Origin: Luteolibacter flavescens
GTDB taxonomy: Bacteria; Verrucomicrobiota; Verrucomicrobiia; Verrucomicrobiales; Akkermansiaceae
NCBI RefSeq assembly: GCF_025950085.1
Contig: NZ_JAPDDS010000005.1
Coordinates: 62,001 to 126,000 of the forward strand
Reading direction: 5' to 3'
DNA length: 64,000 nucleotides
Shown here: one piece after another, positions 13,751 through 39,016 of the stretch
Layout: each line of letters starts with the position of its first letter
How positions within the stretch are numbered: the stretch's first letter is position 1
Notes under the pieces: generated by a model
What the model was told of the DNA's origin: nothing
What the model saw: only the letters and a program-made list of their open reading frames with translations
Databases searched by the model: none
Position numbers and translations under genes: made by a program

Positions 13751-16700
13751 TCATTCCGTGTAGGAGATGCGGTAGAAGGCCCGCACTGCCGGTGGATCCT
13801 CGTCCAGCACGGTCACGACGCCCGATGCCGGGGCCACTTCCGTGTCCACCGTGATCCAGCTATCGGCCAGCAGCGTGGTCGAGCGTTGCAGGATGTAGGT
13901 GGCACCGGGAGTGCCGGTGAAGGTGCCGGTGACGCTTCCGCCGGTCAGGTCCACTGCCAGGGTCATCTGGCCGGGAGCTCCGCTTGCGGCGGCGGTCACG
14001 TTGATGAGCACGCTGCCGACCGAGGAGATACCGCCCCATCCGTCATTCACCGTGTAGGTGAAGCCGTCCAGGCCGGTGAAGCCGGGTGCCGGGGTGTAGT
14101 AGAGGTAGCCCCCGTCGCGGGTGACCGTGCCGCCGTTGAAGCTGGTGGCGCCGAAGGTCTCCAGCTCCAGCGTGTCATTGTCGGCATCGGTATCGTTGGC
14201 GAGCATCTGCGCGTTGATGTCGATCTCGAGCTGTGTGCCCACCGTGGTGCTGAGGCTGTCATCGACCACCACCGGGATGGCATTGGTGACCGCGACGGTC
14301 GCCACGTTGCTATCGACGGAGGACACGCTGTTCGTCACGCGCACCTTGTAGTCCGCGCCGTCCGATATGTCGGAGATAATCACGTCCAGGGTGGGCTGGT
14401 CCGCGCCGGGGATCGGGGTAGTCCCACGATACCACTGGTAAGTCAGCGGGGCCGAGCCGGTGGCTCCTGCAACCAGCGTGATGTTGCCGTTGTGCACGCC
14501 CGGTCCACCCTGCGGCTGCAGCGTGATGTGCGGCGGGGTGCCCGCGGGGATGATGCCGGCGGCACGGAAGTCCACGACATGCAGGCCGGTGTAGCCCTGC
14601 TGCGCATCCGCATTGTTGACCACGAAGTCAATGGTGTTGACTCCAGCGATCAATCCTGGGGCGTTGGTTGTGTTGATCGTGAAGGGAAGCAACTCACCGA
14701 AGGTGTTTCCGGTGTGGGTCAGGCCGGTTGCCACGGTGTTCACGCGGATCGCGACCCCGTTGTTGTCGGATGCCCAGCGTCCCGTGATCTGCACCGTTGA
14801 GATGTCGTAGCCCGTCAGGTCGACGGTCGTGCGGTAGACATAGGTGCCGGGGCCTTCGCCTGCATCTGCATTCAAGCCGGCTGCGCCACCGGTGAAAGCA
14901 CGCGGTCCGATCCAAGTGGAGGTGCCGGTGTGCGGCACCCATGGCGGGGTCGGGATCGGATTCTGAACGAAGGCCATGGTGCTCCCGATATTGTCGGGAT
15001 TCGCGAGCAGGGTGTAGTGGGTATCGACGGTGCCCTGGGCTAGGGCAACACCGAGATTGTCGACACCGGTGTTGAAGAGGCCAGGTGCGCGTTGCAGGAC
15101 GGTGATCACGGCCGGGTTGCTCGTCGTGGAGGAGACGCTGTTCGTCGACACCAGCGTGTAGCTGCCGGCATCCGCGAGCTGGATGTCTACAAGCTCGAGC
15201 TCAGGTTGGTCAGCACCCGGGATGTCCACGTTGTTGCGCTTCCACTGGTAGGTCAGCGTGGAGCTGCCGTTCGCGGCCCCGCGCAGGATGAAGCTGCCGC
15301 CCTCGCTGATGGTAGTGCCGAGCGGCTGGAGCGTGAAGCTGGGAGCCACTCCGACCATCGCATCCACCTCGCGGTTCGAGGAGGCATAGACGTGGATCGT
15401 CTTGTTCCCGTCGGTGGCGTAGTCGATACCGAAGTCCTTGATCTTCGCCGTGCCACTGGCATCCGCCGTGTAGACGCAGTCGAAGCGCGCCCCGCGGTTG
15501 TCGCCATACTGGTCCTGATTGAGAATCTGTGCGTTCTCGCCCGGAGCGCCATACATCGCTCCCTGGCGGACGCCGGTTTCCCAGCCGACGGTGTAGAGGG
15601 AGAAGACATACTGCTTCCCTGGGGTCAATCCGCTCAGGCTGAAGGTGCTAGGGGCACCGCCATGAATGAAGTCCTTAGCGATGGTGGCCGAGTAGCCAGT
15701 GATGGTGTTTGCGTCATTCGTGTAGACACCCGGCATGCCTGTGACGGCGCAGTTCGTACCGGAGGGATTCTGCCCTCCGATGCCCACGAAGTTCACGCCG
15801 TTGATGTTCTGGCTGACCGTGGAGGCGTAGCTCTGGGCGTGGGTGTAGACGTGGTTCGGGCTGGCGCCGGAGTCCGCGTCGTTGTTCCACTCATGGATGG
15901 TCCAGTTGACGGCCGGCGGCCTTGCCGTGGCCTCGCGGTTGCAGAAGGCGCTGACGTGGAAGTCGAGGCTCTGCGACAGCGCGGGGAAGGAGACCGTGAC
16001 CGGGGTGCCGGTCGCATCCGTCGTATAGGTGTACTTCACCTTCAGGCCCTTGTTCTGGCCGTATTGGTTCAGGTTGACGCTGTAGGGCGTCCCTCCGAGG
16101 CTGCTGTTGAAGGTGACCGTGCGGTGCGGGGTCGAGCCCGTCGCCGAGTCCCAGGCGACACCATAGACGGTGAAGACGTACTGGGTATTCGGCTTCAGGT
16201 TTTCCAGCGTCAGCGACGGCAGCGCGCCGTAGCGGAAGGGCGTGGCAAGTGCTGCGCTGTCCCCGGTGATCTGGACGACTCCGGCCCCGAACTGTGCGGT
16301 GGAATTCAGCCCGTTCCACGTGAAGAGACCCGGCAGGGTGCCCTGGCGACCGAAGAACTGCACGCCATTGACGGTGGTGTTCGTCGTGTTGCCCAGCTTG
16401 AAGGCGTGGGTGTAGATGAAGCTGGAGTCGATCCCCGAGTCCGCGTCGCCCGTCCATGCCGAGTGGCTCCAGGCATTGCTCGAGGGCACCACGCTCACAT
16501 TGTCGAGGAGCAGCGTGTGGTCGCCCGAGGTGCGCGCGTTCTCAAAGGTGAGCTCGTGGCTCGTGCCGGTGGCCGTGAATTCGAAGGCCGCGGTCCGGTA
16601 GGGAGTGGCGTCCACCGCCGTCGCGACGCGCGACACTTCCGCGATGACCGGATCACCCGTGCCGTCCGACGACATCCGGAGGTATGGCAGGTTGATCGGG

Positions 16701-17080
16701 GTGTTCGAGCGGGCGTTCACGCGGACGGTGACGGTGTACTTCGTCCCGATGGTCAGGCCGGTCACCGTGGTCTTCAGCGTGGACGTGGTCGTGCCGCCGG
16801 ACTGTAGGAAGCCGACATTCACGCCGCCGGGAATCGCGCCGTTGTTCGCAAAGGGCGAGCTGGTCGCGGGGTTCTGGCCCACGCGGTCGGCGGGAGAGCC
16901 CGTCCAACCGGTGATGGGGCCGTTGGCCGCTCCGCTGATGTAGCCTGGGAACGTGCTGAAATTGTTGGACTCGAAACCCGGGTTGGTGAGCGTCTGCGCC
17001 ACCACCGGGTTTGGGGAGAGCAGGAGCACCGAGGCGAGACTACTCGCCAGTGCCCCCGTGTAGCTGAGGGTTGGTTTCAT
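13751..17080 (-). CDS. Large secreted multidomain protein with Ig-like domains and a tandem duplicated module
   Basis: 1109 residues. Signal peptide to about residue 28 (VVAQT). Next is a CBM-like sandwich ~30-198 (LTNPGFESNNF, ending LLLDNVSVVPS). Two related ~180-residue modules follow at ~202-385 and ~392-572, both opening with W..H.W..DADSG and a YTHA motif and both closing with a YVF.LY.V.W core and a basic NRE tail. Then come an Ig-like domain ~577-662, a sandwich ~667-845, a second Ig-like domain ~848-932, a cadherin-like VCBS-type repeat ~935-1030 (NDTDADNDT), and the C-terminal beta domain ending FYRISYTE that is common at the ends of Verrucomicrobia exported proteins. No enzyme motif was seen; it is a probable adhesin or glycan-binding surface protein. 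A strong terminator follows. Confidence 0.8.
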   Translation of the reverse strand: MKPTLSYTGALASSLASVLLLSPNPVVAQTLTNPGFESNNFSTFPGYISGAANGPITGWTGSPADRVGQNPATSSPFANNGAIPGGVNVGFLQSGGTTTSTLKTTVTGLTIGTKYTVTVRVNARSNTPINLPYLRMSSDGTGDPVIAEVSRVATAVDATPYRTAAFEFTATGTSHELTFENARTSGDHTLLLDNVSVVPSSNAWSHSAWTGDADSGIDSSFIYTHAFKLGNTTNTTVNGVQFFGRQGTLPGLFTWNGLNSTAQFGAGVVQITGDSAALATPFRYGALPSLTLENLKPNTQYVFTVYGVAWDSATGSTPHRTVTFNSSLGGTPYSVNLNQYGQNKGLKVKYTYTTDATGTPVTVSFPALSQSLDFHVSAFCNREATARPPAVNWTIHEWNNDADSGASPNHVYTHAQSYASTVSQNINGVNFVGIGGQNPSGTNCAVTGMPGVYTNDANTITGYSATIAKDFIHGGAPSTFSLSGLTPGKQYVFSLYTVGWETGVRQGAMYGAPGENAQILNQDQYGDNRGARFDCVYTADASGTAKIKDFGIDYATDGNKTIHVYASSNREVDAMVGVAPSFTLQPLGTTISEGGSFILRGAANGSSTLTYQWKRNNVDIPGADQPELELVDIQLADAGSYTLVSTNSVSSTTSNPAVITVLQRAPGLFNTGVDNLGVALAQGTVDTHYTLLANPDNIGSTMAFVQNPIPTPPWVPHTGTSTWIGPRAFTGGAAGLNADAGEGPGTYVYRTTVDLTGYDISTVQITGRWASDNNGVAIRVNTVATGLTHTGNTFGELLPFTINTTNAPGLIAGVNTIDFVVNNADAQQGYTGLHVVDFRAAGIIPAGTPPHITLQPQGGPGVHNGNITLVAGATGSAPLTYQWYRGTTPIPGADQPTLDVIISDISDGADYKVRVTNSVSSVDSNVATVAVTNAIPVVVDDSLSTTVGTQLEIDINAQMLANDTDADNDTLELETFGATSFNGGTVTRDGGYLYYTPAPGFTGLDGFTYTVNDGWGGISSVGSVLINVTAAASGAPGQMTLAVDLTGGSVTGTFTGTPGATYILQRSTTLLADSWITVDTEVAPASGVVTVLDEDPPAVRAFYRISYTE

Positions 17081-17921: not shown

Positions 17922-19343
17922 TTACGCCCCGAACAAGCTCATCACGGGTTTGCCCTTTCCGTCCTCGGTGACGTAGAAGGGGCGCTTCTCGATGTCATAG
18001 ACCATCTTCGGGCTGATGCCCATCGCGGTGAAGATGGTGGCGTGGAGGTCGGTGATATTCACCGGGTCCTTCACGGCGACCAGCGGGCGCTCGTCCGCGG
18101 TCGCGCCGTGGATGTGGCCCTTCTTCACGCCGCCGCCAAACATGACGACGGACGAGCCGCCGGTGAAGTGGCGGTGCAGGCCGTAGTGGGTGGCATTCTC
18201 CAGCGTGTCGGACTTCACCGTGGCCTGGTCCTTCGCCTCGGAGCCGGGGACGCCCTCGATCATCATGTCGCGGCTGAATTCCGTGGCGATGATGACCAGC
18301 GTGCGGTCCAGCATCTTCCGTTCCTCAAGGTCGCGGATCAGGCGGGCGATGGGGCGGTCGATTTCCTGCTTCAGGCGGACGGTGGTCTCGTGGCCGTTCT
18401 CGTGGGTGTCCCAGTGGAGGAAGGGGACATACTCGGTGGTCACCTCGATGAAGCGGGCACCGGCTTCCGCCATGCGGCGGGCGAGCAGGCAGCCGCGGCC
18501 GAAGCGGCCCGGGCCGTAGGCATCCAGCGTGGCCTTTGACTCGCGGGTCAGGTCGAAGGCTTCCTTCTCCTTCGAGCCGAGCAGGCGGTGGGCATTCTCC
18601 AGCGAGCGGAGCATGGACTCCTGCTGGTGGTCGCTCATGAAGTCGCGCTGCGGATTGGCATCCACGAGCTTGCGGTAGAGCTTGTAGCGGTTCGCGAAGC
18701 GACCGGCGTCCATGCCTTCCGGCGGGCGCACGGAGCGTGCGGCCTCGTCGGGGTAGGGGAGATTGAAGGGACCGTACTCCGCGCCGAAGAATCCGGCGGT
18801 GGTGAAGGCCTTCAGCTCCTCGCTCTCGCCGATGCCTTCCAGGCGCTGGCCGATATTCACGAAGGCAGGCATCACCGGATTCCGCGGGCCGAGCACGCGC
18901 GCCATCCATGCGCCGATGTGGGGCGCGGCGACGGTCTGCGGCGGCACGTAGCCGGTGTGCCAGTGGTACTGGTGGCGCGAGTGGAGGATGGAGCCCAGGT
19001 CGGGCTGCACGTGCGAGCGGATCACCGTGGCGCGGTCCATCAGCTTCGCGATTTCCTCGAGGCCCTTGCTGATCTTCAGACCGTCCACCGAGGTATCGAT
19101 CTCGGGGAAGGTGCTGAGGATCTTCTCGATGGGCAGGCCTTTCTCGTAGGGGCGGTAGCCCTTCGGGTCAAAGGTCTCCGGGGAGGCCATGCCGCCCGCC
19201 ATCCAGAGCAGGATGCAGCAGTCGGCGGTGGCCTTCGGATGGACGACCTCTTCATTGCCATAGGCGCGCGGCGCGCCGGACATGGCTGCTGCGAGGCTGG
19301 AGGCGGAGAGGGCCTTGAGGAACGTACGACGGGTATGGTCCAT
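17922..19343 (-). CDS. DUF1501 domain protein, Tat-exported
   Basis: 473 residues from the ATG at 19343. The N-terminus DHTRRTFLKALSASSLAAAM is a Tat signal (RRTFLK). The body follows the DUF1501 alkaline-phosphatase/sulfatase-like fold: CCILLWMAGGMASPETFDPK, the ARFIEVTTEYVPFLHWDTHENG histidine/aspartate region, TLVIIATEFSRD and the GGGVKKGHIHGATAD metal region near the C-terminus. DUF1501 genes in Planctomycetes and Verrucomicrobia almost always pair with a PSD1/DUF1553 cytochrome gene, and here that gene lies 50 bp upstream on the same strand. The activity is not established for the family; a periplasmic hydrolase acting on sulfated or complex polysaccharide is a common suggestion. Confidence 0.92.
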   Translation of the reverse strand: MDHTRRTFLKALSASSLAAAMSGAPRAYGNEEVVHPKATADCCILLWMAGGMASPETFDPKGYRPYEKGLPIEKILSTFPEIDTSVDGLKISKGLEEIAKLMDRATVIRSHVQPDLGSILHSRHQYHWHTGYVPPQTVAAPHIGAWMARVLGPRNPVMPAFVNIGQRLEGIGESEELKAFTTAGFFGAEYGPFNLPYPDEAARSVRPPEGMDAGRFANRYKLYRKLVDANPQRDFMSDHQQESMLRSLENAHRLLGSKEKEAFDLTRESKATLDAYGPGRFGRGCLLARRMAEAGARFIEVTTEYVPFLHWDTHENGHETTVRLKQEIDRPIARLIRDLEERKMLDRTLVIIATEFSRDMMIEGVPGSEAKDQATVKSDTLENATHYGLHRHFTGGSSVVMFGGGVKKGHIHGATADERPLVAVKDPVNITDLHATIFTAMGISPKMVYDIEKRPFYVTEDGKGKPVMSLFGA

Positions 19344-19393
19344 GGGAAACGTGGCAGGAAAGCAGGTGAGTGAATCGGGATCTGCCGACAGGG

Positions 19394-21823
19394 TCAGCGG
19401 ACGAATTGGAACTCCGGCAGGAGGATGACCATCCAGAGAAGGTCCTCGATGGCCTGTGTTGTCGGTTGCATGCCCAGCGTGCTGCCGAGCCCGTTCTTCT
19501 CCGAGGCGGTGGCACGGCGGCCGAGCGCACGCATGAAGACGTGGTCGATGAGCTCCGGCGTCGGCTTCCTCAGTGCGTGGAGGTCGGCGGCTCCCTTTTT
19601 CAGGAGGCCGGCGAGCTGCTCGCCATTGGCCAGGTCGATCGCTTCCAGCGTCGTGATATTGTCCGGACGCATGCTGACGATCTGCTCGCGGTTCGGGCGG
19701 CCGAGGGCGCGCATCAGCATGTCCGAGGGCACCAGCGAGGCGCGGACCATCGGCGCGGGCTCCGAGGAAAGCGGAGGCATCGCGGCGACGAAGCGGTCCC
19801 ACACTCCCGGATTTGCGAGCACCTGGGCTGGCTGCCAGTCCTGCGGAGCGCGGGCGAAGCGGCCCTTCTCATCCGGCAGGCTGGACGTCCATTTCCAGGA
19901 GGGGCCGCTGGCGATGGTCACGGGCTTGCCGTCCGGCATCTCGATGCGGCCTTCCAGCAGGAAGCCCGCGGGATTCGGGCCGCTGCCGCCATTGCGGACC
20001 ACGGCGAGGATGGAGTTCTTCCCGGCGCGGAGACCCTGCAGGTCCACGGACACACCGCGGGGGCCTTCCGGGTGGGCGGTCTCGCGGACCACGGAGCGGC
20101 CATTGATGAAGATCTCGGCCTCGTTGTCGGCGATGAAGACGGCCTTCGCCGCTGCCGGGGCGGAGGGCAGAGTGACCTCGGTGCCGAGCGTGATGGTGTG
20201 GCCGGAGGGCATGGACGCCGAGGCGGATGCCTGCGACCAGATCCAGCGGGCGGTGAGAGGGGCAGCACCCGCACCCTTGCCGCGCGGCACGGCGTCGCTC
20301 GCCTTGTCAGGCGCGGTGCCGGTGAGGGTCCACACGGCATCCACGAATTGCTCGGCGCTCATGCGCTTCGCCAGCGGGCCGCGGAAGACATTCTGGTCCG
20401 CATTCTCGGCGGTCACCACCGGCTGCGACTGGTAGATCTCCGAGGAGGCGATGAAGGCGAGCGCCTTCTTCAGGTCATAGCCATCCTCGGCGAAGCGCAC
20501 GGCCAGGAAGTCCAGCAGGTCCTCGTTCCACGGCTCGGTGTCCATGGCATCCACCGGGTGGACGATGCCGCGGCCCATCAGGCGGTGCCACAGGCGGTTG
20601 ACGATGGTGCGGGTGAAGCGGCCGTTCTCCGGGTGGGTCATCAGGCCGGCGAGCTGCTTCAGGCGCTCCGGCTGCGGTGCATTTGCATCCACTTCGCCGA
20701 GTTCCGGGAAGATCCAGCCGGGCTTGGCCATGCGGCCGGTCGGCTTGTCGCAGCGCGCGATTTCCAGCGGCTGCTCGGCGTAGATGGCGGCGAGTCCGTA
20801 GGCCTCGTCGAGCTTCCAGCGGTCCACGAAGCTGTCGTGGCACGAGGCGCACTTCATGTTCAGGCCGAGGAAGGTCTGAGAGACGGATTGCGAGAACTGG
20901 ATCTCGCGGACCTGCGAGGCATTCACGCTGCCGCGCCACTGGATGCCATCGATGAAGCCGCGCGATGCCGGTGTGGGCGGTGCGAGCAGCTCGCGGGCGA
21001 ATTCATCGTAGGGCTTGTTGGAGACCAGCGACTCGTAGAGCCAGCCGGTGATGGGCGAGCGGCCGCCATCGATGTAGCCGGTGCCCTGGTAATCATTCCG
21101 CAGCAGGTCATTCCAGAAGCTCAGCCAGTGCTCCGCGTAGTCCGTGTCGCGGGCGAGCGTGGACTCGATGAGCTTCGCACGCTTGTCCGGCGCCTTGTCC
21201 GCCACGAAGGCATCGATGGCCTCCGGGGTGGGCAGCAGTCCGGTGAAGTCGAGCGTGATGCGGCGGATGAAGGCGGCATCGCCCAGCGGCTGCGGGCGCG
21301 TCACCTTCTTGTTCACGAAGTAGGCGTCGATCAACCGGTCGACCGGGTGCTCGCGGCCATCGGCCACCGCGGGCAACTCCGGGTGGCGCGGCTTCAAGGG
21401 CGGCTCGTAGGACTGCTCGCCGAAGCTGAAGCCCGGCTGCCATTTCATCCCCTCGTCGATCCACTGCCTGAGGATCTCGGCCTGGTCCGCAGGGACACGC
21501 GGTCCCTTGGGAGGCATCCTCTCCACCTTGTCGTCGGTGAGGATGCTCTCCAGCAAGAGACTTTCGTGGGCCTTGCCCGGCTCGACGATCGCGCCGTTCT
21601 CAGACCCCTCGAGCAGCGTCTCCCGCGTGTTCATGGAGAGGCCGCCTTTCTTGGCTCCCTCCATGTGGCACTTGGAGCAGTGCTCCTTCAGGATGGGGAC
21701 CACCTGATGGGCGAAGTCCACCTCCGCACTGGCGGTGACGGGTGCCAGCAGGAGCAGGGGCAGAAGACGGGGCAGAAGGGACAAGTCCTCCCGCACGGGG
21801 GCTGTTTTGACAGACCGTGGCAT
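19394..21823 (-). CDS. PSD1 planctomycete cytochrome protein (DUF1549/DUF1553) with beta-sandwich insertion
   Basis: 809 residues, secreted (hydrophobic leader to about residue 32). An N-terminal planctomycete cytochrome c domain carries CSKCH (residues 49-53) and a PPKGPR distal loop. DUF1549 runs ~155-365 and has a second haem motif, CASCH at 325-329. DUF1553 starts near 385 (GRFTRTIVNRLWHRLMGRGIV). From ~522 to ~685 DUF1553 is interrupted by a beta-sandwich (AVFIADNEAEIFINGRSV), after which DUF1553 resumes to the end (MLMRALGRPNREQIVS). The inserted module resembles residues 241-390 of the protein encoded just upstream. By family knowledge it is an exported c-type cytochrome oxidoreductase working with DUF1501. 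The start at 21823 lies 46 bp after the upstream stop. Confidence 0.92.
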   Translation of the reverse strand: MPRSVKTAPVREDLSLLPRLLPLLLLAPVTASAEVDFAHQVVPILKEHCSKCHMEGAKKGGLSMNTRETLLEGSENGAIVEPGKAHESLLLESILTDDKVERMPPKGPRVPADQAEILRQWIDEGMKWQPGFSFGEQSYEPPLKPRHPELPAVADGREHPVDRLIDAYFVNKKVTRPQPLGDAAFIRRITLDFTGLLPTPEAIDAFVADKAPDKRAKLIESTLARDTDYAEHWLSFWNDLLRNDYQGTGYIDGGRSPITGWLYESLVSNKPYDEFARELLAPPTPASRGFIDGIQWRGSVNASQVREIQFSQSVSQTFLGLNMKCASCHDSFVDRWKLDEAYGLAAIYAEQPLEIARCDKPTGRMAKPGWIFPELGEVDANAPQPERLKQLAGLMTHPENGRFTRTIVNRLWHRLMGRGIVHPVDAMDTEPWNEDLLDFLAVRFAEDGYDLKKALAFIASSEIYQSQPVVTAENADQNVFRGPLAKRMSAEQFVDAVWTLTGTAPDKASDAVPRGKGAGAAPLTARWIWSQASASASMPSGHTITLGTEVTLPSAPAAAKAVFIADNEAEIFINGRSVVRETAHPEGPRGVSVDLQGLRAGKNSILAVVRNGGSGPNPAGFLLEGRIEMPDGKPVTIASGPSWKWTSSLPDEKGRFARAPQDWQPAQVLANPGVWDRFVAAMPPLSSEPAPMVRASLVPSDMLMRALGRPNREQIVSMRPDNITTLEAIDLANGEQLAGLLKKGAADLHALRKPTPELIDHVFMRALGRRATASEKNGLGSTLGMQPTTQAIEDLLWMVILLPEFQFVR

Positions 21824-21869
21824 GACGAGCCGGATGATAGTGGTGTGTTCTAAAGGGGAATTCTTCGGA

Positions 21870-24800
21870 TTACTTCGCTAGGAGGTAGGCGAGGAGGTCC
21901 TTCAGTTCTTCCGGGTTGAGGCGATTGATCAGGCCTGCAGGCATCGGGGATACCGGCGAGGGCTTGATGTCCTTGATCTGGCTGCGCTCGATCTCGCTCG
22001 TGGAGCTGAAGTCGAACGGGCTGGTGGCGATGATCCAGTGCTCGTCCTTCTCCTCGATCAGCTTGCCGACGACCTGCGAGCCGTCGTGCTTGATGATGGT
22101 GTCGAAGGCATACTGGTCGGAGACGACCAGGCTGGGCTCCAGGATGGACTCGGCGAGGTCCTTCACCGAGAAGCGTCCGCCCACGGCGGTGAGGTCGGGA
22201 CCCGCGGAGCCGCCCTCGCCATCGAAGCGGTGGCATGCGGCGCAGAGCGATGCCTGATACATCTTCTTGCCGTTCTCCTTGTCGCGGCCTTCGAGGCCGT
22301 CGGCAGCGAGCTTTTCGATCTCGGCCACGGTCCACTCACGGCCCGGACCCTGCACGGGCGGCAGGTTGGCAAGCGGGTTCGCGGTGACCACGGGTGCCAT
22401 CTTCTCGATCCACTCGCGCTCTTCCGGCGTGGCGCTTTCCAGCGTCTGCTTGCGCAGGTCCTGGATGAAGCCGGCATAGCTGGCACCGCCGCTCTTTTCG
22501 ACCAGGCGGCCGAACCATGCGAAGAAGCGCTTGCGCTCGTCCTGGCTCCACGGGCCCTTCACCACACGCAGGCAATACATGTAGTGGATGACCTGTGCGG
22601 GCGGCAGGTTGTTGATCATCTTCTCGACGTCGGCACCGTACTGCGTGTTGCGCTTGGCGACCTCGAGCCAGTCAGGGGCGGGCGAGGGGCCGGTGGTGTC
22701 CATCAGCGCCAGCGTGCGGCCGACGATGCCGGGAGCCTGCAGGTAGCTGAGCATGCGGCAGAGCTCGCGGTCCACGTCGGCTTGGTTCGACGGGAAGGCG
22801 GTGTCGATCTTGGCGAGCATCTTGGTGCGCTCGTCGGCGGTCGGCTCGCCATGGCGGGCGAAGGCGAGGCCGGCGGCACGCAGCCAGTTGATCTTCTGCT
22901 GGGTGTCCAGCTTCGTCCAGTCGAGGCCAAGCAGGGCGTCGAGCGCGATGCCGCGCTGCGCTGCGGTGCCGGTGCGGGCGAGGGCCATGGAGCCGCCAAT
23001 CACCTTCCAGGCATCCTTTTCCCCGGCGAGCTTCTGGGCGATGGGGCCGGCACCGACGTGTTCGATCGCGGTGCGGGAGTTGAAGCGCTCCACGCGGTCC
23101 TTCGAGCCGAGGCCTTCCCAGGCGCCTTCCTTCGGTGCGAGCTCGGCTTCCTTCGCGGCGTAGGCCACGGGGGCGACAGGCTCGGTGCCGGTGTAGGTGA
23201 CGCGCCAGAGGGCGGATGCCGTGCGGCGGCCGCCGGTCATGAAGTACATCGCGCCGTCCTTGCCGATGGCGGCGTCGGTCAGCGGCAAGCCGGAGCCGGC
23301 GAGGAATTCCTCACGCTCGGTCTTGTACGTCGCGCCGTCCGGGGTGAGGTGGATGGCGTGGATGGTGGCGTAGGTCCAGTCGAAGGCGTAGAGCGCGCGC
23401 TGGTACTTCGCGGGGAATTTCGCGTCCTTGCCGGCGAGCATGCCGGTGGGGGAGCCGGGTCCCAGCTCGACCAGAGGAGGCATGCTGTCCTCGTAGTAGG
23501 CGGGCCATGGGCCGGTGCCGTGGCGCCAGCCGTACTCGGCTCCGGGGACGATCTGGCCGATGCGGGTGGGGCGATACCACGGCATGCCGAGGTCCCACTC
23601 CATGTCGGAATCGTAGCCGAAGAGGTCGCCCTTGTCATTGAAGGCGATGTCATAGGTATTCCGCATGCCCATGCCGACGAGCGTCCAATTCGAGCCGTCC
23701 AGATCGCAGCGTGCGACCCAGCCGCCTGGGGCGAAGCGGTCCTGTGCGTGGCCGCGGGCGTCGGGACGGCGTGGCAGGAGCTGGTCTTCCTTCCAGACCT
23801 TCGGGACCATCGAGCCCTTCATTTCCGGCAGGTCGGTGAAGTTGCCTGCGACGAAGTAGATGTATTTGCCATCCGGCGAGGGGACCAGCGCATGCGGGCC
23901 GTGCTCGCCATTGCCGCCCACGGTCAGGACGCGCTCGGCCTTGTCCGGCTCGCCATCGCGGTCGGTGTCGATGACGCGATAGACACCGGCAGGCTCGGGG
24001 CCTTCATTCACGGTGACCCAGAGGACACCCTGGTGCCACAGCAGGCCGTGTGCACCCGCGAGCGGGATGGAGGTCGGCGTGACGATGGTCTCCTGGTCCG
24101 GAGTGGCGGCCGGGGTGACGCGGTAGATCTTGCCATACTGGTCGGCGCAGAGCAGGCGGCCCGAGCCATCGATGGTCATGGCCACCCAGGATCCCTGCAC
24201 GTTCGGCACCTGATAGAGGCGCTCCAGCTTGAAGCCGGGGAGAAGCTGATACTTGTCGGTGACATCGACGGGGATGGCGCCGCCCTCGGGGTCCGGCTGG
24301 ATGACCATGCCCCACGGGCTGTCGCCCATCTTCGCGACCACGGTGGCTGGCTTCCAGTCGCGCGGGGTGAAGCGTGGCTCCTGCCATCCGCGCGGGGCCT
24401 CGAGCGAGGTGACCCACTTGTCATCGGAGACGATCCATGCCTTGCGTCCGCCCTTCACGGTGGCGGAGAAGCGCAGTGCCATGCCGGCGCTGCCGTCCTG
24501 GTTGCGGCCTTCCACGGCGATCACGTTGCGTCCGCCCTGCACGAGGTGCTGGGTGACGTCGTGGTTCGCGGGGGAGCCCCACTCGCTCGTCCAGCCGAGG
24601 TCCTTGCCATTGATCCAGACGCGCTGCCAGTTGTCGCAGGTGACGGCGAGCGATGCCGAGATGACATCGCGCGGCAGGGCGAATTCGCGGCGGAAGTGGA
24701 CCTTCTGGTTTGCGCCGGGATTCGCATTCTCCCAGATCCAGGAGATGTCCGGCTCGACGGCTTTGGCTGCATTCGCCTTGGCCGGTGCCGCGACGGGTGC

Positions 24801-25466
24801 GGGCTTGAAGGTGCGGATGCGCAGGCCCTTGAACTCCGCCTTCATCGAAGGACCGGCGTGGACCTGCAGCGCGAGCACGCCTTTCAGCGAGCGCTTCGCC
24901 GCATCCACGTCGCGGATCTCGGCGACGGGCTTGTCATTGATGTAATGGGTGACGGTGTCTCCCTTCGCCACGATGCGATAGGTATTCCACTCGGAGAGGG
25001 TGGTCGCCGGACGCTGGAGCGAGCCGGTCACCTTCGGCTTGTCGGCCAAGTCCACCTTCTGTCCGCTTTCGCAGGCGATGCCGCGGCCCTGCTCTTCATA
25101 GAGCATACCGAGGTACTGCGGCGCGGGGTGCAGGTCCATCTGGTATCCACCCACGGACCACTGTTTCGGATCGATGATGCGGCTGCGGTACTGCACGCCG
25201 GAATTGTTATCTCCGGTGACGCGTGCCTGGTACTCGAACTCGAAGTCGGCGACATCGCCACCTTCCCAGATGAGGAAGGAGTTCGCGCCGATCTTGCGGT
25301 CACCATCATTGGTCTCACCGGTGAGCACGCCGCCTTCGACACGCCACAGGCGCGGGTCGCCGGACCAGCCATCCAGATTGCGACCATTGAAGATCGGCTT
25401 CCACTCCTGACCATGGAGTGAAGTGGCGACGAAAAACAGGGAGAGTGTGGATACGAATCGTTGCAT
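21870..25466 (-). CDS. DUF1080 domain fused to PVC-type dehydrogenase propeller and c-type cytochrome
   Basis: 1198 residues. Signal peptide 1-20 (TSLHGQ). DUF1080 / 3-keto-disaccharide hydrolase domain ~22-220 (FNGRNLDGWSGD, SGVQYRSRI). Beta-sandwich ~241-390. A PVC-type sorbosone-dehydrogenase-like beta-propeller runs from ~405 (LLPGFKLERLYQVP) to ~760. A helical HEAT-like region follows, and the C-terminus is the PVC haem-binding domain with CAACH (C1075, C1078, H1079), QVVGKLIEEKDEHW and a final Lys-rich tail. This combines carbohydrate cleavage, oxidation and electron transfer in one periplasmic polypeptide. It is followed 46 bp later by the PSD1 gene and then DUF1501. Family functions are known only in part; the fused order is what the sequence shows. 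Confidence 0.92.
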   Translation of the reverse strand: MQRFVSTLSLFFVATSLHGQEWKPIFNGRNLDGWSGDPRLWRVEGGVLTGETNDGDRKIGANSFLIWEGGDVADFEFEYQARVTGDNNSGVQYRSRIIDPKQWSVGGYQMDLHPAPQYLGMLYEEQGRGIACESGQKVDLADKPKVTGSLQRPATTLSEWNTYRIVAKGDTVTHYINDKPVAEIRDVDAAKRSLKGVLALQVHAGPSMKAEFKGLRIRTFKPAPVAAPAKANAAKAVEPDISWIWENANPGANQKVHFRREFALPRDVISASLAVTCDNWQRVWINGKDLGWTSEWGSPANHDVTQHLVQGGRNVIAVEGRNQDGSAGMALRFSATVKGGRKAWIVSDDKWVTSLEAPRGWQEPRFTPRDWKPATVVAKMGDSPWGMVIQPDPEGGAIPVDVTDKYQLLPGFKLERLYQVPNVQGSWVAMTIDGSGRLLCADQYGKIYRVTPAATPDQETIVTPTSIPLAGAHGLLWHQGVLWVTVNEGPEPAGVYRVIDTDRDGEPDKAERVLTVGGNGEHGPHALVPSPDGKYIYFVAGNFTDLPEMKGSMVPKVWKEDQLLPRRPDARGHAQDRFAPGGWVARCDLDGSNWTLVGMGMRNTYDIAFNDKGDLFGYDSDMEWDLGMPWYRPTRIGQIVPGAEYGWRHGTGPWPAYYEDSMPPLVELGPGSPTGMLAGKDAKFPAKYQRALYAFDWTYATIHAIHLTPDGATYKTEREEFLAGSGLPLTDAAIGKDGAMYFMTGGRRTASALWRVTYTGTEPVAPVAYAAKEAELAPKEGAWEGLGSKDRVERFNSRTAIEHVGAGPIAQKLAGEKDAWKVIGGSMALARTGTAAQRGIALDALLGLDWTKLDTQQKINWLRAAGLAFARHGEPTADERTKMLAKIDTAFPSNQADVDRELCRMLSYLQAPGIVGRTLALMDTTGPSPAPDWLEVAKRNTQYGADVEKMINNLPPAQVIHYMYCLRVVKGPWSQDERKRFFAWFGRLVEKSGGASYAGFIQDLRKQTLESATPEEREWIEKMAPVVTANPLANLPPVQGPGREWTVAEIEKLAADGLEGRDKENGKKMYQASLCAACHRFDGEGGSAGPDLTAVGGRFSVKDLAESILEPSLVVSDQYAFDTIIKHDGSQVVGKLIEEKDEHWIIATSPFDFSSTSEIERSQIKDIKPSPVSPMPAGLINRLNPEELKDLLAYLLAK

Positions 25467-25495
25467 GAGACGGGTGAGACAGAGAACGGAGCAAG

Positions 25496-26191
25496 TTAAG
25501 GATTCTTTCCAGATGTCGTGCGATGATCTGGAAAACCGAGCACGCGCGGTGTGCGGCTGCCACCTTCATTGATGACGAAGAGAAGCGTGCGGGCTGCGGG
25601 ATCGTGATTCCACTGGGTCTCGCAGAGAGGGTAGTTCGCTTCCTTGCCGGGGATGCGGAAGTTGAGGCTCACATGATAGGGCTCCACCGCGGAAGCGGGC
25701 GCATCGGTGATGACCTTCGAGCGAGCCTTCAGGACGAGCTTCTGCTTGCCCACGGTACCGGCCACGTCATTTGGCGTGAGATTGAACCACTGCATCTGGC
25801 CGGCCTTGAAGCGCTCCGCGGTCGCATCGATGATCTGCATGCGCACCGGCACGGTCTTGTTCGTCGGGTCCGGGCTGAGCACGAGGTAGAAGTCACCCAC
25901 GGTCTCCGCGACGGTGGCGGACGGTGCACCCGCGGGCACGGGCTGATCCTTTGCCGGGGCAGCGGTCAGCATGCGGAGAGTGATGGCACCGGACGGGACC
26001 TCATAGACCTTCGAGAGATTCATCCGTGGCAGCTCCACCTCGGTGGCGGCGGTGCCGTCGTGAAGGAAGAGGGTCTCGGGATCGGACGCTGCCGCGCCCA
26101 AGAAAAGGACACGGCAGGTTCGTTCGCCCTTCTTTTCCTGGGCGGAGAGAGACAGCGGAAGGAGGCAGCAGATAAAGGCGAGGATTCGCAT
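25496..26191 (-). CDS. Secreted hypothetical protein
   Basis: 231 residues with a signal peptide (MRILAFICCLLPLSLSAQ). The mature part is beta-rich with alternating hydrophobics (CRVLFLGAA, DFYLVLSP, VPVRMQIIDA) and a VGKQKLVLKARSKVI segment; no enzyme motif or metal cluster is seen. It lies 29 bp upstream of the DUF1080/cytochrome gene and 12 bp downstream of the pseudopilin-like gene on the same strand, so it is probably co-transcribed with both. The spacing suggests a structural or surface role linked to the pseudopilin-like protein, but this is inference only. I do not recognise the family. Confidence 0.75.
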   Translation of the reverse strand: MRILAFICCLLPLSLSAQEKKGERTCRVLFLGAAASDPETLFLHDGTAATEVELPRMNLSKVYEVPSGAITLRMLTAAPAKDQPVPAGAPSATVAETVGDFYLVLSPDPTNKTVPVRMQIIDATAERFKAGQMQWFNLTPNDVAGTVGKQKLVLKARSKVITDAPASAVEPYHVSLNFRIPGKEANYPLCETQWNHDPAARTLLFVINEGGSRTPRVLGFPDHRTTSGKNP

Positions 26192-26203
26192 GGGAACAAT
26201 CTG

Positions 26204-29200
26204 TCAAATCTCCGCGGGGTTTAGCCAGCGGAAGCTCACCACCTCGAAGCGGCGGCCAAAGGTTTTGTTGAGATCGGACTTCGGTGGCGTGACGAGGTCG
26301 GCGGCATCCGTGGAATCGACGTAGTCGCGGGTGCGGCGGACGATGGCCTCGCACACCGCGCGGCTGACCACGTTGCCCTTTTCATCGCGGGCATCGCCAT
26401 GGGCGCGGATCACGAAGGTATCGTCACGGGCGGACAGGATGGGAGCGATGGGGCGGAGGATGTCCGCCTGGCGCGTCCAGCCTGGCAGGCCGTAGGCGCT
26501 CCAGCCCTCGGCTGCAGCGGGGAAGCGGTAGGCGGCGTCATTCAGGCGCGGCAGTTTGGAGGCGCTGGCCTTCTCTCCCTGGATCGACATGAGGGCCTCC
26601 ATTTCGGCGAAGGGATTCGCGCTGCCCTTCGATGCCTCATTCATCGCCGCCTGCACGGCACCGGCGAGGGCGAGGTCCCCGGAGGAAAGCTGGCGGTTCA
26701 CGAATTCAGCGAGCGAGAGGAAGGGGCCGCGTGCGCGCACCTGCTTCACGATCTCTTCGGCGAGCTGGTCGATGAATTCCTCATCGAGCACGCGGTAGCC
26801 GGCGAATTCCGTCGCTTCCGGGAAGATGCCCGCGCCGCCCGACTTGCCGGCTTCCACGTCACCAGCGATGGAGAAGCGGCTGACGGCATAGTTGGTCTCG
26901 CCCGAGAGATCCACATTCCAAGTGCTTCCGCTGTCTCGGATGAAGGGGACGCGCTGGTTCCGCGCGTGGCCGAGCAGCGCGCGCCAAGCGACCACGGAGG
27001 TGGAGTTCACGTTGAACATTCCTTCGACATCGAAGCGCGAGGCGATGTTGCGGTAGGCGTCGTTCCTCCTCACGTACTGGTCGTAGAGGGTATTGGCATT
27101 CCCCTCCGCTGCCGCTGCGAATGCCTTGTCCTCGGTGATCGCGTGGTAGGCCCGGTTCGCGAGGGGCGAGGTGCCGGAGACGAAGCTGGTGTAGGTCGTC
27201 TGGAGGTTCTTCCCGGCGTTGCCGTAGGTATTCGGATCAGGCGCGATCGAGGAGAAGAACCAGTCGTCGAAGAGCACGTGGTTCGCGCAGTAGCTGTCGT
27301 CGTGCTGGAGGTTGGTCGCCAGGTTCGTGTAGGTCGTGTTCACTACCGCATTCGCGGGAAGCAGCGGGCTCGCGTCGCTGTTGCCGATCAGGTTGAAGGC
27401 GAAGGGCGGGATGGGATTCTCGTAGCGCAGGTCCCAGTTCTGCAACTCGGCGAGGGACGCCAGCGGACGCACGGGGATCTCCGCGATCACGCAGCGCGAG
27501 AGGCCGTCGGCACTGCTGAAGCCGGTGACGATGTAGCCCTTCGTGTCGTTCGAGTTGGGGAACATGCTGTCGTTTGCGGACAGCGAGGTGAAGCTGTAGT
27601 CGAAGGGCGAGTTCACCGGGTGATTGGTGCCGCTGTAGTCGATGCCGATGGTCGATTCCGCGATGTCCTTCGAGCCCATCGCCGTGTAGTTCACGAGCGG
27701 GCTGGACTGCACGAAGCCCTTCGCTGGCAGGTGAGTGTTGCTGGCCATGCGTGCTCCGAAGACCGTGGCCATGAAGGGCACCGGATTCGTGGAGGAAGCC
27801 GCGAGGGTGGCACTGGCGAGCTGGGTGAGCGGCTTGTACACCTCGTTGGCGATCGTCGGGGTGTAGGTCATCCGGTAAACGAGATGCCGCTCGTTGTTGA
27901 TGTTCATGTCCAGATAGATGCCGACACCGGTCTGGCCTCCATCATCGTAGGTCGTGTCGAATTTCGCGTCAGCCTTGATGGTGGAGCTTCCGGGGGCGGT
28001 GAAGGTCTGGCCCGCGGAGTTCTTCACGTCGAAGAAATGACCGCCCTTGTGACGGAAGCCCGGCTGGAGTTCCACTTCCTGATCGGAAGCCACGATGCCG
28101 GCGGTGGTGCTGGGGCTGAAAACCCGGGCTTCACCCGGCTTCAGCGTGAACTGTGTCGTGATCCTGTAACGCAGCGCGCTGGATGCGGAGAGGGATGGCG
28201 TGTTGGTCAGGTTGCCGGAAGTGAGGGAATTGTAGACGGTATTCGTGGCACTTCCCACGGTGTATCGCAGGGCGACAGGCAGTGGCTTGGCGACCGAGAA
28301 GTGGAGGGCGCTGGTCGGCGAGGAAAGCTCGACACTGTAGGGATTCCACATGGTCACCACGGGAGTGAGCAGCATGCGTGGATTATAGAGAGTTTCACCC
28401 GAGCCTCCCGCTCCTGCAGTGGTGGCGTAGTGGGAAAAGACCCACTGGACACGAGCGACCAAAGGCAGGCGCCGGACGCGGTGGAGGAAGTTGTATGCAT
28501 TGCCCGTGGCATCCACGGAGATCGAGTTGCTGGCGATGCGATTGCGACCGGTGGAGCTGGAGGTGATCGTCTTGTAAAGGGTCGCGTAGTCGCGGAGGTT
28601 TTCCCAACTGCTGACCGGACCGTGGCGGTACATTGGTGGGTCGGAGGGACCACCGCGGTAGGAGGCCCATGGGTAGAGCATGGAGCGCTCGGCCGTCGGG
28701 TTGCTCGTGGCCTTGGCGGCGGTGCCGTCCCGTTCCGGCGTGAGGCGGAAGAAGGGAAGATTGGAAGAGGGCAGGGAGGCCCAGTTCTCCGTCACCAGCG
28801 AGAGGTCCTTGCGCCAGCCGCCGGTGGCAGTGTTAGTGAGGAGGCCGGTCGAGGTGGTGGAGAGATCGTGGAAGAATTCCTGCGAGGCATTCAGGTCGCC
28901 CTTGTCCGCGACCAGGTCGCTGAGCATCAGGCTGACGGTGCGGTCGCTGAGGGTGGGGTCATTGATCAGTTCCTCCATGCGCAGCGGCTTGGGGTCGGCC
29001 ACGGCGTGTGACTTCGCGACCACCGCCCAGCGGGGTGCGGTGTCTTCTTCGGGCTTGTGGGGCTTGGGCAGGCGGGCCTTCTGGTTCTCGCCGCCGATCC
29101 ACCAGGCGAAGCCACCGTTGTCCTTGCCAGCGGTCACGCTCTGCGCGTCCAGGTGCACCTGCAGCTTCTCGCGGCCGGTGCCGGTGCCCACGGTGCGCTC

Positions 29201-29668
29201 GCCGAGGAGTGCCACGCTGCCCATGCGCTGCTTCGTGTCGGGCATGGTCTTCATGTCCGGGCCGGAGGTCATCCAGCCGAGGAAGCGTGCTTCCTTCTTC
29301 GAGGCGTAGTTGCCGGGGGAGATCGGGCGTCCCTTCGAGTCGTGATTGGTTCCTTCCCAGCTCTTCCACACGCCGAGCACGGGTGGATTGTTCTCGTTGA
29401 GGATGTCGGCGCGCGCGGTCACGCGGGTGTCCGCGCCTGCCTGCTTCTGCAGTTGTCCGATGGCGAGGCTAAGGGCCATGCGGGCATTCGCGCGGGCCTG
29501 TGCAGCGTATTCGTCGCGGCTGCCTCCGCGCAGCGAGATGGTGGACAGGCCGATCAAGCCGGTGACCAGCACCATGATCAGCACCATCAGTGACAGCGAG
29601 ATGATCAGGGCAAAGCCTCGTGGCTGCCGCTGGCGGATGGGAAAGTGATTACGGGAAGAAGTTGTCAT
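26204..29668 (-). CDS. Verru_Chthon cassette protein A-like pseudopilin protein
   Basis: 1154 residues from the ATG at 29668. The N-terminus is basic, then RGFALIISLSLMVLIMVLVTGLIGLS (residues ~16-41), a type IV prepilin-like membrane helix but without the canonical G^FTLIE glutamate; RGFALII is the form seen in Verru_Chthon cassette protein A. A long extracytoplasmic region follows, with conserved-looking NARMALSLAIGQLQKQAG after the helix, a WWIGGENQKARL motif and many Asn/Ser/Thr-rich beta stretches. Family members usually come with cassette proteins B, C and D; none is present here. An open frame extends upstream through the AraC gene but has no start supported by content. It heads the five-gene minus-strand cluster down to 17922. 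Confidence 0.85.
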   Translation of the reverse strand: MTTSSRNHFPIRQRQPRGFALIISLSLMVLIMVLVTGLIGLSTISLRGGSRDEYAAQARANARMALSLAIGQLQKQAGADTRVTARADILNENNPPVLGVWKSWEGTNHDSKGRPISPGNYASKKEARFLGWMTSGPDMKTMPDTKQRMGSVALLGERTVGTGTGREKLQVHLDAQSVTAGKDNGGFAWWIGGENQKARLPKPHKPEEDTAPRWAVVAKSHAVADPKPLRMEELINDPTLSDRTVSLMLSDLVADKGDLNASQEFFHDLSTTSTGLLTNTATGGWRKDLSLVTENWASLPSSNLPFFRLTPERDGTAAKATSNPTAERSMLYPWASYRGGPSDPPMYRHGPVSSWENLRDYATLYKTITSSSTGRNRIASNSISVDATGNAYNFLHRVRRLPLVARVQWVFSHYATTAGAGGSGETLYNPRMLLTPVVTMWNPYSVELSSPTSALHFSVAKPLPVALRYTVGSATNTVYNSLTSGNLTNTPSLSASSALRYRITTQFTLKPGEARVFSPSTTAGIVASDQEVELQPGFRHKGGHFFDVKNSAGQTFTAPGSSTIKADAKFDTTYDDGGQTGVGIYLDMNINNERHLVYRMTYTPTIANEVYKPLTQLASATLAASSTNPVPFMATVFGARMASNTHLPAKGFVQSSPLVNYTAMGSKDIAESTIGIDYSGTNHPVNSPFDYSFTSLSANDSMFPNSNDTKGYIVTGFSSADGLSRCVIAEIPVRPLASLAELQNWDLRYENPIPPFAFNLIGNSDASPLLPANAVVNTTYTNLATNLQHDDSYCANHVLFDDWFFSSIAPDPNTYGNAGKNLQTTYTSFVSGTSPLANRAYHAITEDKAFAAAAEGNANTLYDQYVRRNDAYRNIASRFDVEGMFNVNSTSVVAWRALLGHARNQRVPFIRDSGSTWNVDLSGETNYAVSRFSIAGDVEAGKSGGAGIFPEATEFAGYRVLDEEFIDQLAEEIVKQVRARGPFLSLAEFVNRQLSSGDLALAGAVQAAMNEASKGSANPFAEMEALMSIQGEKASASKLPRLNDAAYRFPAAAEGWSAYGLPGWTRQADILRPIAPILSARDDTFVIRAHGDARDEKGNVVSRAVCEAIVRRTRDYVDSTDAADLVTPPKSDLNKTFGRRFEVVSFRWLNPAEI

Positions 29669-29733: not shown

Positions 29734-30225
29734 TCAGGCCGCTCCGCTGCGGCGTCCGTGGAAGGACTCCTTCCACTGTCCGGGTGTCTGGCCGAAGTGC
29801 TCGCGGAAGAGCCGGCACAGGTTCTTGGCATTGCCGAGGCCGGTCTCGATGGCCACGGGCTCCAGCTTCACATTGTCCTCGCGCAGCATCGTCGCGGCGG
29901 CTTCCACCCGCCGGGCGATGAGGTCCTGGCCGATCGTATTCCCGGTGGCGGAGCGGTACAGCCGGTGCAGGGAGCGCACGGACATGCCGCACTCGCGTGC
30001 CAGCGAGGTGACGGTCAGCGGACGCGAATACTCGTCACGGATGGTGCGGATCGCCTTGCGGATGCCAGGGTTGTTGCACTCCGGCATCGCAGCCATCCCG
30101 GCACGGGAGGATCCCTCCTTCGTCCGGGAGTCATTCCAATCGAACTCTCCGCCGACAGGGGTGGCGGGAGCTACGATCGTGTCCGCGCCTCCGGCGGACT
30201 CATCATGGCATGCTTCGAGTTTCAT
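29734..30225 (-). CDS. AraC-family transcriptional regulator (DNA-binding domain only)
   Basis: 163 residues. The C-terminal ~105 residues form the double helix-turn-helix of AraC/XylS regulators (PLTVTSLARECGMSVRSLHRL for helix-turn-helix 1, then VAIETGLGNAKNLCRLFREHFGQTPGQW). The ~50-residue N-terminal part has no ligand-binding cupin and is probably disordered. It starts at the ATG at 30225 with no good ribosome site. The gene lies 65 bp upstream of the pseudopilin-like gene and on the same strand, and is a good candidate regulator of that operon. Three imperfect 11-bp repeats sit about 65-95 bp upstream (30289-30319), which could be its own operator. Confidence 0.9.
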   Translation of the reverse strand: MKLEACHDESAGGADTIVAPATPVGGEFDWNDSRTKEGSSRAGMAAMPECNNPGIRKAIRTIRDEYSRPLTVTSLARECGMSVRSLHRLYRSATGNTIGQDLIARRVEAAATMLREDNVKLEPVAIETGLGNAKNLCRLFREHFGQTPGQWKESFHGRRSGAA

Positions 30226-30288
30226 GGGGTTTTAGCCCGCCGGATTTCTCCAGTGGACTGTGATCCCCTACCCGAATGCTTATGCTTT

Positions 30289-30319
30289 GGATACCTAGGT
30301 GAATACCTAGTGAATACGT
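30289..30319. repeat. Three imperfect 11-bp direct repeats upstream of the AraC-type gene
   Basis: Units GGATACCTAGGT (30289-30300), GAATACCTAGT (30301-30311) and the partial GAATACG (30312-30318) follow head to tail in an AT-rich 158-bp gap (30226-30383). An inverted repeat, ATCGCT/AGCGAT (30322-30327 and 30335-30340), lies beside them. The helical spacing of about 11 bp suits a tandem operator. The regulatory role is inferred. Confidence 0.4.
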
Positions 30320-30383
30320 AAATCGCTATTTATGAGCGATATGCGTTTTTTAAAAAAGTGAAAGAACGTTGAAAGGGCTAGCG

Positions 30384-31046
30384 TTAATTTCCCTCCGCCT
30401 CGCGCTTCATGTATTTCAGGACGGCTTCCGTCCGGGTCCTTACGTGGAGCTTCCGGTAGATATTACCAAGGTGGAAGCTCACCGTTTCCATGCGCACTCC
30501 CAACTCGTGGGCGATCTCCTTGTAGAGATATCCCTTCGCCAGCAGGTCGAGCGTTTCCTTCTCCCGCTGGGTCAGGTGGTAGTCTTCCACCGGTTCGGCG
30601 ACGGGCAGTTGCACGGGCAGTTGGAAATGCTGCACCACCTTGCGGGCGATGCCGCTGGACATCGGCGAGCCGCCGGCCACGACGTCATCCAGCGACTCCA
30701 GCAGCCGCTCGTCGATGTCGCGCTTCAGCACGTACCCGGACGCACCCGCGGCGAGGGCTTCGAAGACGCGGTCGGCATCCTCGAAGACGGTCACCATGAG
30801 GAACTGGGTATTCGGGCACAGCGGCTTCACCTTCCGCAGGAGCTGGATGCCGGAGAGGCCGGGGAGCTGGATGTCCACGACGCAGGCTTCCGGTGCATCC
30901 TTCTGCAGGCCTTCCAGTGCCGTCTCGGCGCGGCCATAGCAGCCGGTGACGGTCCACTTGTCGGAGGCGGACAGTGTTTCTCGGAAGGACTCCCGCAGCA
31001 GCGAGTCATCCTCGACGATGGCAATGGTGCGCTTGGCCGAAGTCAT
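30384..31046 (-). CDS. NarL/LuxR-family response regulator
   Basis: 220 residues from the ATG at 31046. Receiver domain ~1-125 with the acidic pocket E12-D13-D14, phosphoacceptor D58 (VVDIQLPG), the conserved Thr in MVTVFED and Lys in YVLKRD. The C-terminal LuxR/NarL helix-turn-helix is at ~155-215 (LTQREKETLDLLAKGYLYKEIAHELGV, then GNIYRKLHVRTRTEAV). Its start overlaps the kinase stop by 4 nt (ATGA at 31046-31043), so kinase and regulator are co-translated and form a cognate two-component pair. An upstream in-frame start at 31082 lies inside the kinase gene and adds no domain sequence. Confidence 0.95.
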   Translation of the reverse strand: MTSAKRTIAIVEDDSLLRESFRETLSASDKWTVTGCYGRAETALEGLQKDAPEACVVDIQLPGLSGIQLLRKVKPLCPNTQFLMVTVFEDADRVFEALAAGASGYVLKRDIDERLLESLDDVVAGGSPMSSGIARKVVQHFQLPVQLPVAEPVEDYHLTQREKETLDLLAKGYLYKEIAHELGVRMETVSFHLGNIYRKLHVRTRTEAVLKYMKREAEGN

Positions 31047-38911: not shown

Positions 38912-39016
38912 CGCGGCAGGGTCCTTTGATTCGGTGCTTTCGACGTTTAATTGGTAGTGGTGCCCCGGCGTGGCGGTCAAGGATCTCCGGCCGCATGACA
39001 GCCAGGATCTGGGACG

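Follow-up and report, generated by a model that had tools for sequence, protein, structure and literature searches.

A giant GspK-like protein, its partner gene and neighbouring PSCyt/PSD1 and DUF1501 genes in Luteolibacter flavescens

Tip pilins and the five-gene block

How the tip of a type II secretion machine selects what it meets is an open question. According to the available part of PMC6211770, XcpX (GspK) sits atop the pseudopilus tip complex. The available parts of two further papers describe related arrangements: modular pilins, among which GspK is cited, are thought to show their extra module at filament tips (PMC8179133), while the minor pilin of type IVb pili binds a soluble protein encoded in the same operon and is proposed to carry this protein through the secretin (PMC9565799). 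For the PSCyt proteins, the available part of PMC5615132 predicts a periplasmic or cytoplasmic location and states that PSCyt2 and PSCyt3 genes usually adjoin unknown gene families, with nothing known of their functions.

The window analysed here is a stretch of 64,000 nucleotides from Luteolibacter flavescens (assembly GCF_025950085.1, contig NZ_JAPDDS010000005.1, positions 62,001 to 126,000). It contains a block of five minus-strand genes on contig C5 of the 5.9 Mb genome, denoted K, S, C, D and T in the order of transcription and listed with their neighbours in Table 1. The initial annotation had described five genes on one strand with gaps of 12-50 bp, and this agrees with the gene coordinates, the gaps being 12, 29, 46 and 50 bp. 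One promoter-like site was found compared with 1.1 expected, and 7 terminator-like sites compared with 8.4 expected. The DUF1080 domain of C, fused to the other domains given in the table, represents the 3-keto-disaccharide hydrolase family. C and D have Sec-type starts as judged by eye, and T is a DUF1501 protein with a TAT-like start, its matches scoring below the curated cut-offs. Both C and D also carry a stretch partly matching the alpha-L-rhamnosidase model NF041573, far below its cut-off; that of D sits between its two PSD1 pieces. That C, D and T oxidise polysaccharide is a guess.

In titles and the starts of abstracts on GspK, modular pilins, PSD1, DUF1501, Luteolibacter and Verrucomicrobia, nothing was found on a K-S pair, and no paper was found by name on the Verru_Chthon cassette, although subscription papers lay mostly outside the search and both absences are weak.

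Table 1. Genes of the block and its surroundings, with positions in the window
Feature	Position	Strand	Basis or remark
K: putative giant GspK-type minor pseudopilin, 1154 aa	26204-29668	minus	profiles, predicted model
S: secreted (signal peptide by eye), predicted two-domain beta-sandwich protein, 231 aa, partner of K	25496-26191	minus	
C: DUF1080 + GH2-N-like + Piru_Ver + TIGR02603 haem-binding fusion, 1198 aa	21870-25466	minus	
D: PSCyt1-PSCyt2-PSD1 protein, 809 aa	19394-21823	minus	
T: DUF1501 protein, 473 aa, TAT-like start	17922-19343	minus	
AraC-type helix-turn-helix protein, directly upstream of K	29734-30225	minus	conserved in L112 and L139
LuxR-type response regulator	30384-31046	minus	collinear in L112 (89%)
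Histidine kinase with LamG-like region (below cut-off)	31043-33559	minus	collinear in L112 (71%)
Ig/cadherin-like secreted protein	13751-17080	minus	after T in L112 and L139 (54%)
1894-aa protein with lamin-tail domains, LamG-like and CotH-like domain	7935-13619		relative follows the block in L139 (68%)
Second DUF1501 protein, other type (about 29% to T orthologues)	37445-38980		no K or S nearby

Identity of K and its pairing with S

The initial annotation took the first gene for Verru_Chthon cassette protein A, and the profile searches do not confirm this assignment. K scores 24.0 bits against TIGR02600, whose curated cut-off is 332.3 bits, and the match is confined to residues 18-77; the model of type II secretion GspK (NF037980) matches the same stretch at 24.3 bits, covering residues 17-87 only and not reaching its own cut-off of 130. 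Seven true Verru_Chthon A copies, those with an unbroken match, reach 952-1432 bits. None of the 14 matches to TIGR02600 in the source genome exceeds the cut-off, and members over it were found in 2 of the 145 phylum genomes searched; as these searches scored no more than 4-5 candidates in each genome for K and Verru_Chthon A, they serve as evidence of presence only. At all six true A loci examined, three short pilin-like genes adjoin A and none of the loci contains S; when cassette genes B, C and D were looked for among the neighbours of K in the window, no pilin-type gene was found. When profiles of 72 K and six true A are compared, only 66 N-terminal columns align. With cut profiles, the C-terminus gave E of 0.03-0.05 and a 24-column motif E of 0.003, at probabilities of 11% or less. 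Full-length homology between K and Verru_Chthon A was rejected, as nothing beyond the 66 columns aligns above chance. Judged by sequence, the Verru_Chthon A label of K is misleading, since it rests on 60 residues, and this family label is corrected here.

On the other hand, the pseudopilin-like nature proposed for K is upheld, and the predicted model sharpens it to the GspK type. The AlphaFold model, built from an alignment of 72 K, has a mean pLDDT of 91.8 and a pTM of 0.90. When compared with 3ci0_K, the GspK tip pseudopilin of type II secretion, it gave a Z of 11.5 with an rmsd of 3.1 over 235 of 280 residues (model range 47-1154), against 4.8 for the next-best chain; these values come from a second aligner run on Foldseek's list, and by Foldseek alone GspK ranked fourth with an E of 0.11, which is not significant. 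No Pfam family, N_methyl included, was found in K at E up to 0.1, and no relative of K or S among the PDB sequences at E up to 1. K has a prepilin-type site at G18/F19, and by eye the G-F-A motif is invariant across the 15 paralogues of the source genome, with no Glu at +5. GspK itself is not known to carry Glu at +5.

A profile built from three short relatives (412-422 aa) aligns with K over residues 14-164, 881-901 and 1068-1153. What sets the giant form apart is thus a large central part, which lies between about residues 165-290 and 881 and is missing from the short relatives; in the comparison of the whole K model, this part gave weak beta-sandwich matches with Z up to 4.8, and it is not put forward as a new fold. 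The predicted model and the short relatives both agree with the composition of a modular pilin, i.e. a pilin module plus an extra bulky module. From the model, K looks like a minor pseudopilin of the GspK type, enlarged by its huge central part. No other pseudopilin is encoded beside K in the window; such genes are present in relatives of another family.

Neither is K an orphan cassette gene, as had been supposed, because the second gene, S, is its partner and the genome contains 14 further paralogues. S, encoding a secreted protein of about 230 residues, lies directly downstream of 12 of the 15 K genes in the source genome (at L056 as a weak match, E 1.6e-4), the exceptions being L046, L047 and L055. 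In the best 80 of 549 GTDB relatives, S is the next gene in the same orientation, at a distance of -11 to 208 bp, for 72 of the 83 K genes that have room for a neighbour, 9 further K having no such room. Ten genomes of other families contributed 40 loci, picked from hit lists and not a random sample, where S accompanies 35 of the 42 K genes. These three counts are also those of gene pairs with both partners in one cluster, as in CofB-CofJ. Within the phylum, K was found in 37 of 145 genomes and S in at least 16 of them, a lower bound because the S search is limited in reach and misses G018, whose S adjoins K; all genomes with a detected S bear K, and S was found in none of the 108 genomes without K. 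For the 12 pairs of the source genome, the distances among K and among S correlate (Pearson 0.58, Spearman 0.38, Mantel p 5e-5), so that the pairs have diverged together. K-S is a real two-gene module, general and widespread.

Some K genes have no adjacent S: 3 of 15 in the source genome, 11 of 83 and 7 of 42 in the two sets above, and 5 of 30 giants in the set described next. For genus g2 of the same family, K is present in 14 of 15 genomes and S was detected in none, L206-L208 being examples of giant K without S. Also, in the source genome S and K of L055/L060 (C19, about 55-69 kb) are set apart by two large divergent genes (1413 and 1450 aa), and an S gene at C11:132297-132941 lies about 7 kb upstream of the L047 K, which has no S directly after it. 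In L128, L144, L156, L295 and L314, K or K-S units stand in tandem, two or three at a time, and seem to have arisen by duplication of the unit.

A related family of the same class has K at the end of an operon that contains up to five pilin-type genes, of which two are GspG-like by partial match. The short K there (386-433 aa where the gene caller found them; those of L244, L245 and L255 were missed and recovered by six-frame search) have S in 0 of 17 cases, while the giant K in the same set (907-1094 aa, one from another family) have it in 25 of 30 and lack it in five; one giant without S, L261, is near a contig end. On a tree built from the shared columns, all short K fall in one clade (98/98), and the link between K size and S therefore represents one evolutionary event. 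The tree's counts of S changes may be off through L200 (G134, 812 aa, no S), a long branch that is outside the 17 and 30 counted but was mislabelled as S-bearing in the tree; the short-K clade is unaffected.

The model of S (pLDDT 91.7) has two beta-sandwich domains, preceded by an N-terminal helix that resembles a signal peptide. The predicted domain arrangement is that of the PepT2 extracellular domain (5a9i; Z 12.8, rmsd 3.2, 174 residues). The second domain also matches AlgF, HGSNAT and domains of pore-forming toxins at Z of about 7-9; deriving a function of S from these matches was rejected, as this range is common.

Linkage of K-S to the enzyme genes

A search of gene neighbourhoods, which the initial annotation had named as a check, found PSD1 and DUF1501 genes together with K-S in five other records and in two gene orders, namely K-S-[C]-D-T in L080, L112 and L139, and D-T-K-S in L111 and L157. 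Luteolibacter marinus L112 is collinear at 54-89% identity, from kinase, regulator and AraC protein through K, S, C, D and T to the Ig-like protein. The conserved block in L112 is thus longer than five genes, corresponding to the window genes from the kinase group (29734-33559) through the Ig/cadherin-like gene (13751-17080). L139 retains AraC, K, S, D and T together with the two genes that follow, and L080 keeps K, S, D and T. The kinase, the LuxR-type regulator and the small AraC-type protein may control the block. The D orthologues beside K-S have 51-73% identity and the T orthologues 70-87%; for L111, T is at 82% and K at 49%, and for L157 the values are 70% and 32%. In L335, K follows T. 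Because orthologous D and T are found beside K-S in two gene orders, and T-K in L335, the linkage is not due to chance. From the 244 genomes of the family, T orthologues (at least 57% among the matches listed) are set apart from other DUF1501 proteins (at most 40%). Within flanks of 1.5 kb, which are too short to reach a K upstream of D, D is upstream of T in 30 of 30 T orthologues and K is just after T in one (L335).

The linkage has its limits. In the source genome, no match to D or T was found in the stretches around the other 14 K genes, and 9 of the 10 PSD1 genes lie away from any K. For the best 80 loci, D or T accounts for 15 of 241 genes within two of K or S, compared with 0 of 363 at four or more, in a test that treats genes as independent and includes the three closest orthologues; the former count becomes 10 of 229 without them. 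D or T is within two genes of K or S in 8 of the 80 loci, three of these having other D/T types (25-33% identity). When the 40 loci of other families are considered, the counts are 1 of 159 near and 0 of 221 far, and D or T is near K in 1 of 40 loci. The linkage of K-S to PSD1/DUF1501 is real but lineage-specific.

No enriched neighbour family of K-S in general was shown against control genes. Sulfatases account for 4 of the 56 downstream neighbours of K-S and 3 of the 47 upstream ones; the control genes, four or more positions away, include 3 among 91, so that we claim no enrichment of sulfatases. PSD1 was counted in 3 of 56 downstream and DUF1501 in 2 of 47 upstream, together with many singletons that include housekeeping genes. 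These counts use 56 of 62, 47 of 50 and 91 of 112 genes, those left out being mostly short or at the end of a contig. One cargo for all K-S pairs was rejected, as the neighbouring families are mixed.

Proposed mechanism and comparison with known systems

We give a probability of about 0.6 to the reading that K is a tip pseudopilin with a bulky module on which S docks, the tips probably being alternatives for few machines. K would cap a short type IV filament (pseudopilus), with its pilin helix and GspK-like body plugging into the filament, and the central part of several hundred residues would be the bulky binding module carried at the tip. S, a soluble protein, would dock on this module, as CofJ does on CofB, and be exported together with it or shown at the tip. 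The many K-S pairs would probably be alternative tips for few filament machines, and in the lineage of the window one tip may be tied to the PSCyt/PSD1-DUF1501 pair, a two-component sensor and the AraC protein. Against its 15 K, the source genome contains GspF/PilC-type genes at four places and four secretins; it also has a separate operon with a secretin, pilin-type genes and an ordinary GspK of 311 aa. Fifteen K for few machines suggest exchangeable tips. The display of the central module and the docking of S are proposed by analogy with the described systems; the tip position, the sharing of machines and any link to glycans are likewise inferred. The fuller version, with about 15 interchangeable giant tips, most with their own partner and some with regulators or enzymes, sharing few type II/IV machines and with the window copy tied to PSCyt/PSD1-DUF1501, is more tentative and we lean somewhat against it. 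If it is true, one machine would gain many specificities by tip swapping.

Other readings were weighed on the same evidence. S might act in the periplasm as a chaperone that helps the giant K to fold or assemble, and be neither displayed nor exported. Beta-sandwich chaperones are common, the K and S genes are adjacent and co-diverging, and S is missing where the central part of K is missing; since K of similar size occurs without S in genus g2 and elsewhere, we consider this reading improbable. Even less probable is that K is a periplasmic receptor whose pilin-like N-terminus is only a membrane anchor and never enters a filament. It would suit the K genes of the window genome, which stand alone without other pilins, but the prepilin-type site is invariant in 15 paralogues, the predicted fold is that of GspK, and K is part of a pilin operon in the related family.

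The initial annotation had suggested a pseudopilus or scaffold dedicated to the neighbouring enzymes, here taken as one that exports or docks the PSD1, DUF1501 and DUF1080 proteins. Its claim of dedication stands in part. The orthologues of D and T beside K-S in L080, L112, L139, L111 and L157, the T-K order in L335, and the excess of D and T near K or S (15/241 versus 0/363) all speak for it. However, D or T is near K or S in 8 of 80 loci only, with 10/229 after removal of the three closest orthologues; other families show 1/159 near and 0/221 far, i.e. 1 of 40 loci, and 9 of 10 PSD1 genes in the source genome are off K. Also, the TAT-like start of T and the Sec-type starts of C and D suit the periplasm, and PSCyt proteins are predicted to be periplasmic or cytoplasmic in the available part of PMC5615132. 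Dedicated export or docking is therefore considered unlikely. Compared with these alternatives, we prefer the tip pseudopilin with a docked partner. With at least a dozen giant GspK-like proteins in a genome, most of them accompanied by a partner gene, this group of bacteria provides natural variants for testing whether the tip sets specificity, and K-S is a first testable neighbour for the PSCyt/PSD1-DUF1501 proteins.

When compared with GspK/XcpX, K shares the pilin helix and GspK body of the predicted model, the lack of Glu at +5 and, in its relatives, the position as last gene of a pilin-type operon. It differs in its length, about four times that of GspK, and its huge central part, in its 15 copies, in its pairing with S, in standing alone as a gene in the window genome and in scoring below the cut-off of the GspK model. 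Verru_Chthon A (TIGR02600) belongs to the same length class and shares the first 66 columns of the pilin-type N-terminus; unlike K, true A has B, C and D genes beside it, and true cassettes have no S. In CofB-CofJ and TcpB-TcpF, a minor pilin and a soluble secreted protein likewise come from one cluster (PMC9565799, available part), whereas K-S, with its putative contact between the two proteins, occurs as many pairs per genome, has a conserved predicted two-domain fold in S and has no full pilus operon beside it in the window genome. Modular pilins such as PilB of Streptococcus sanguinis, ComZ and CofB also have a bulky module on a pilin for presumed display at the tip, and K exceeds the 860-residue case named as the most extreme in the available part of PMC8179133. 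Unlike them, K would place its module on a GspK body, is multiplied in one genome and has a fixed neighbour gene. K-S thus appears to be a modular-pilin variant that was mislabelled because of the N-terminus of K, and its general mechanism would be the one proposed above.
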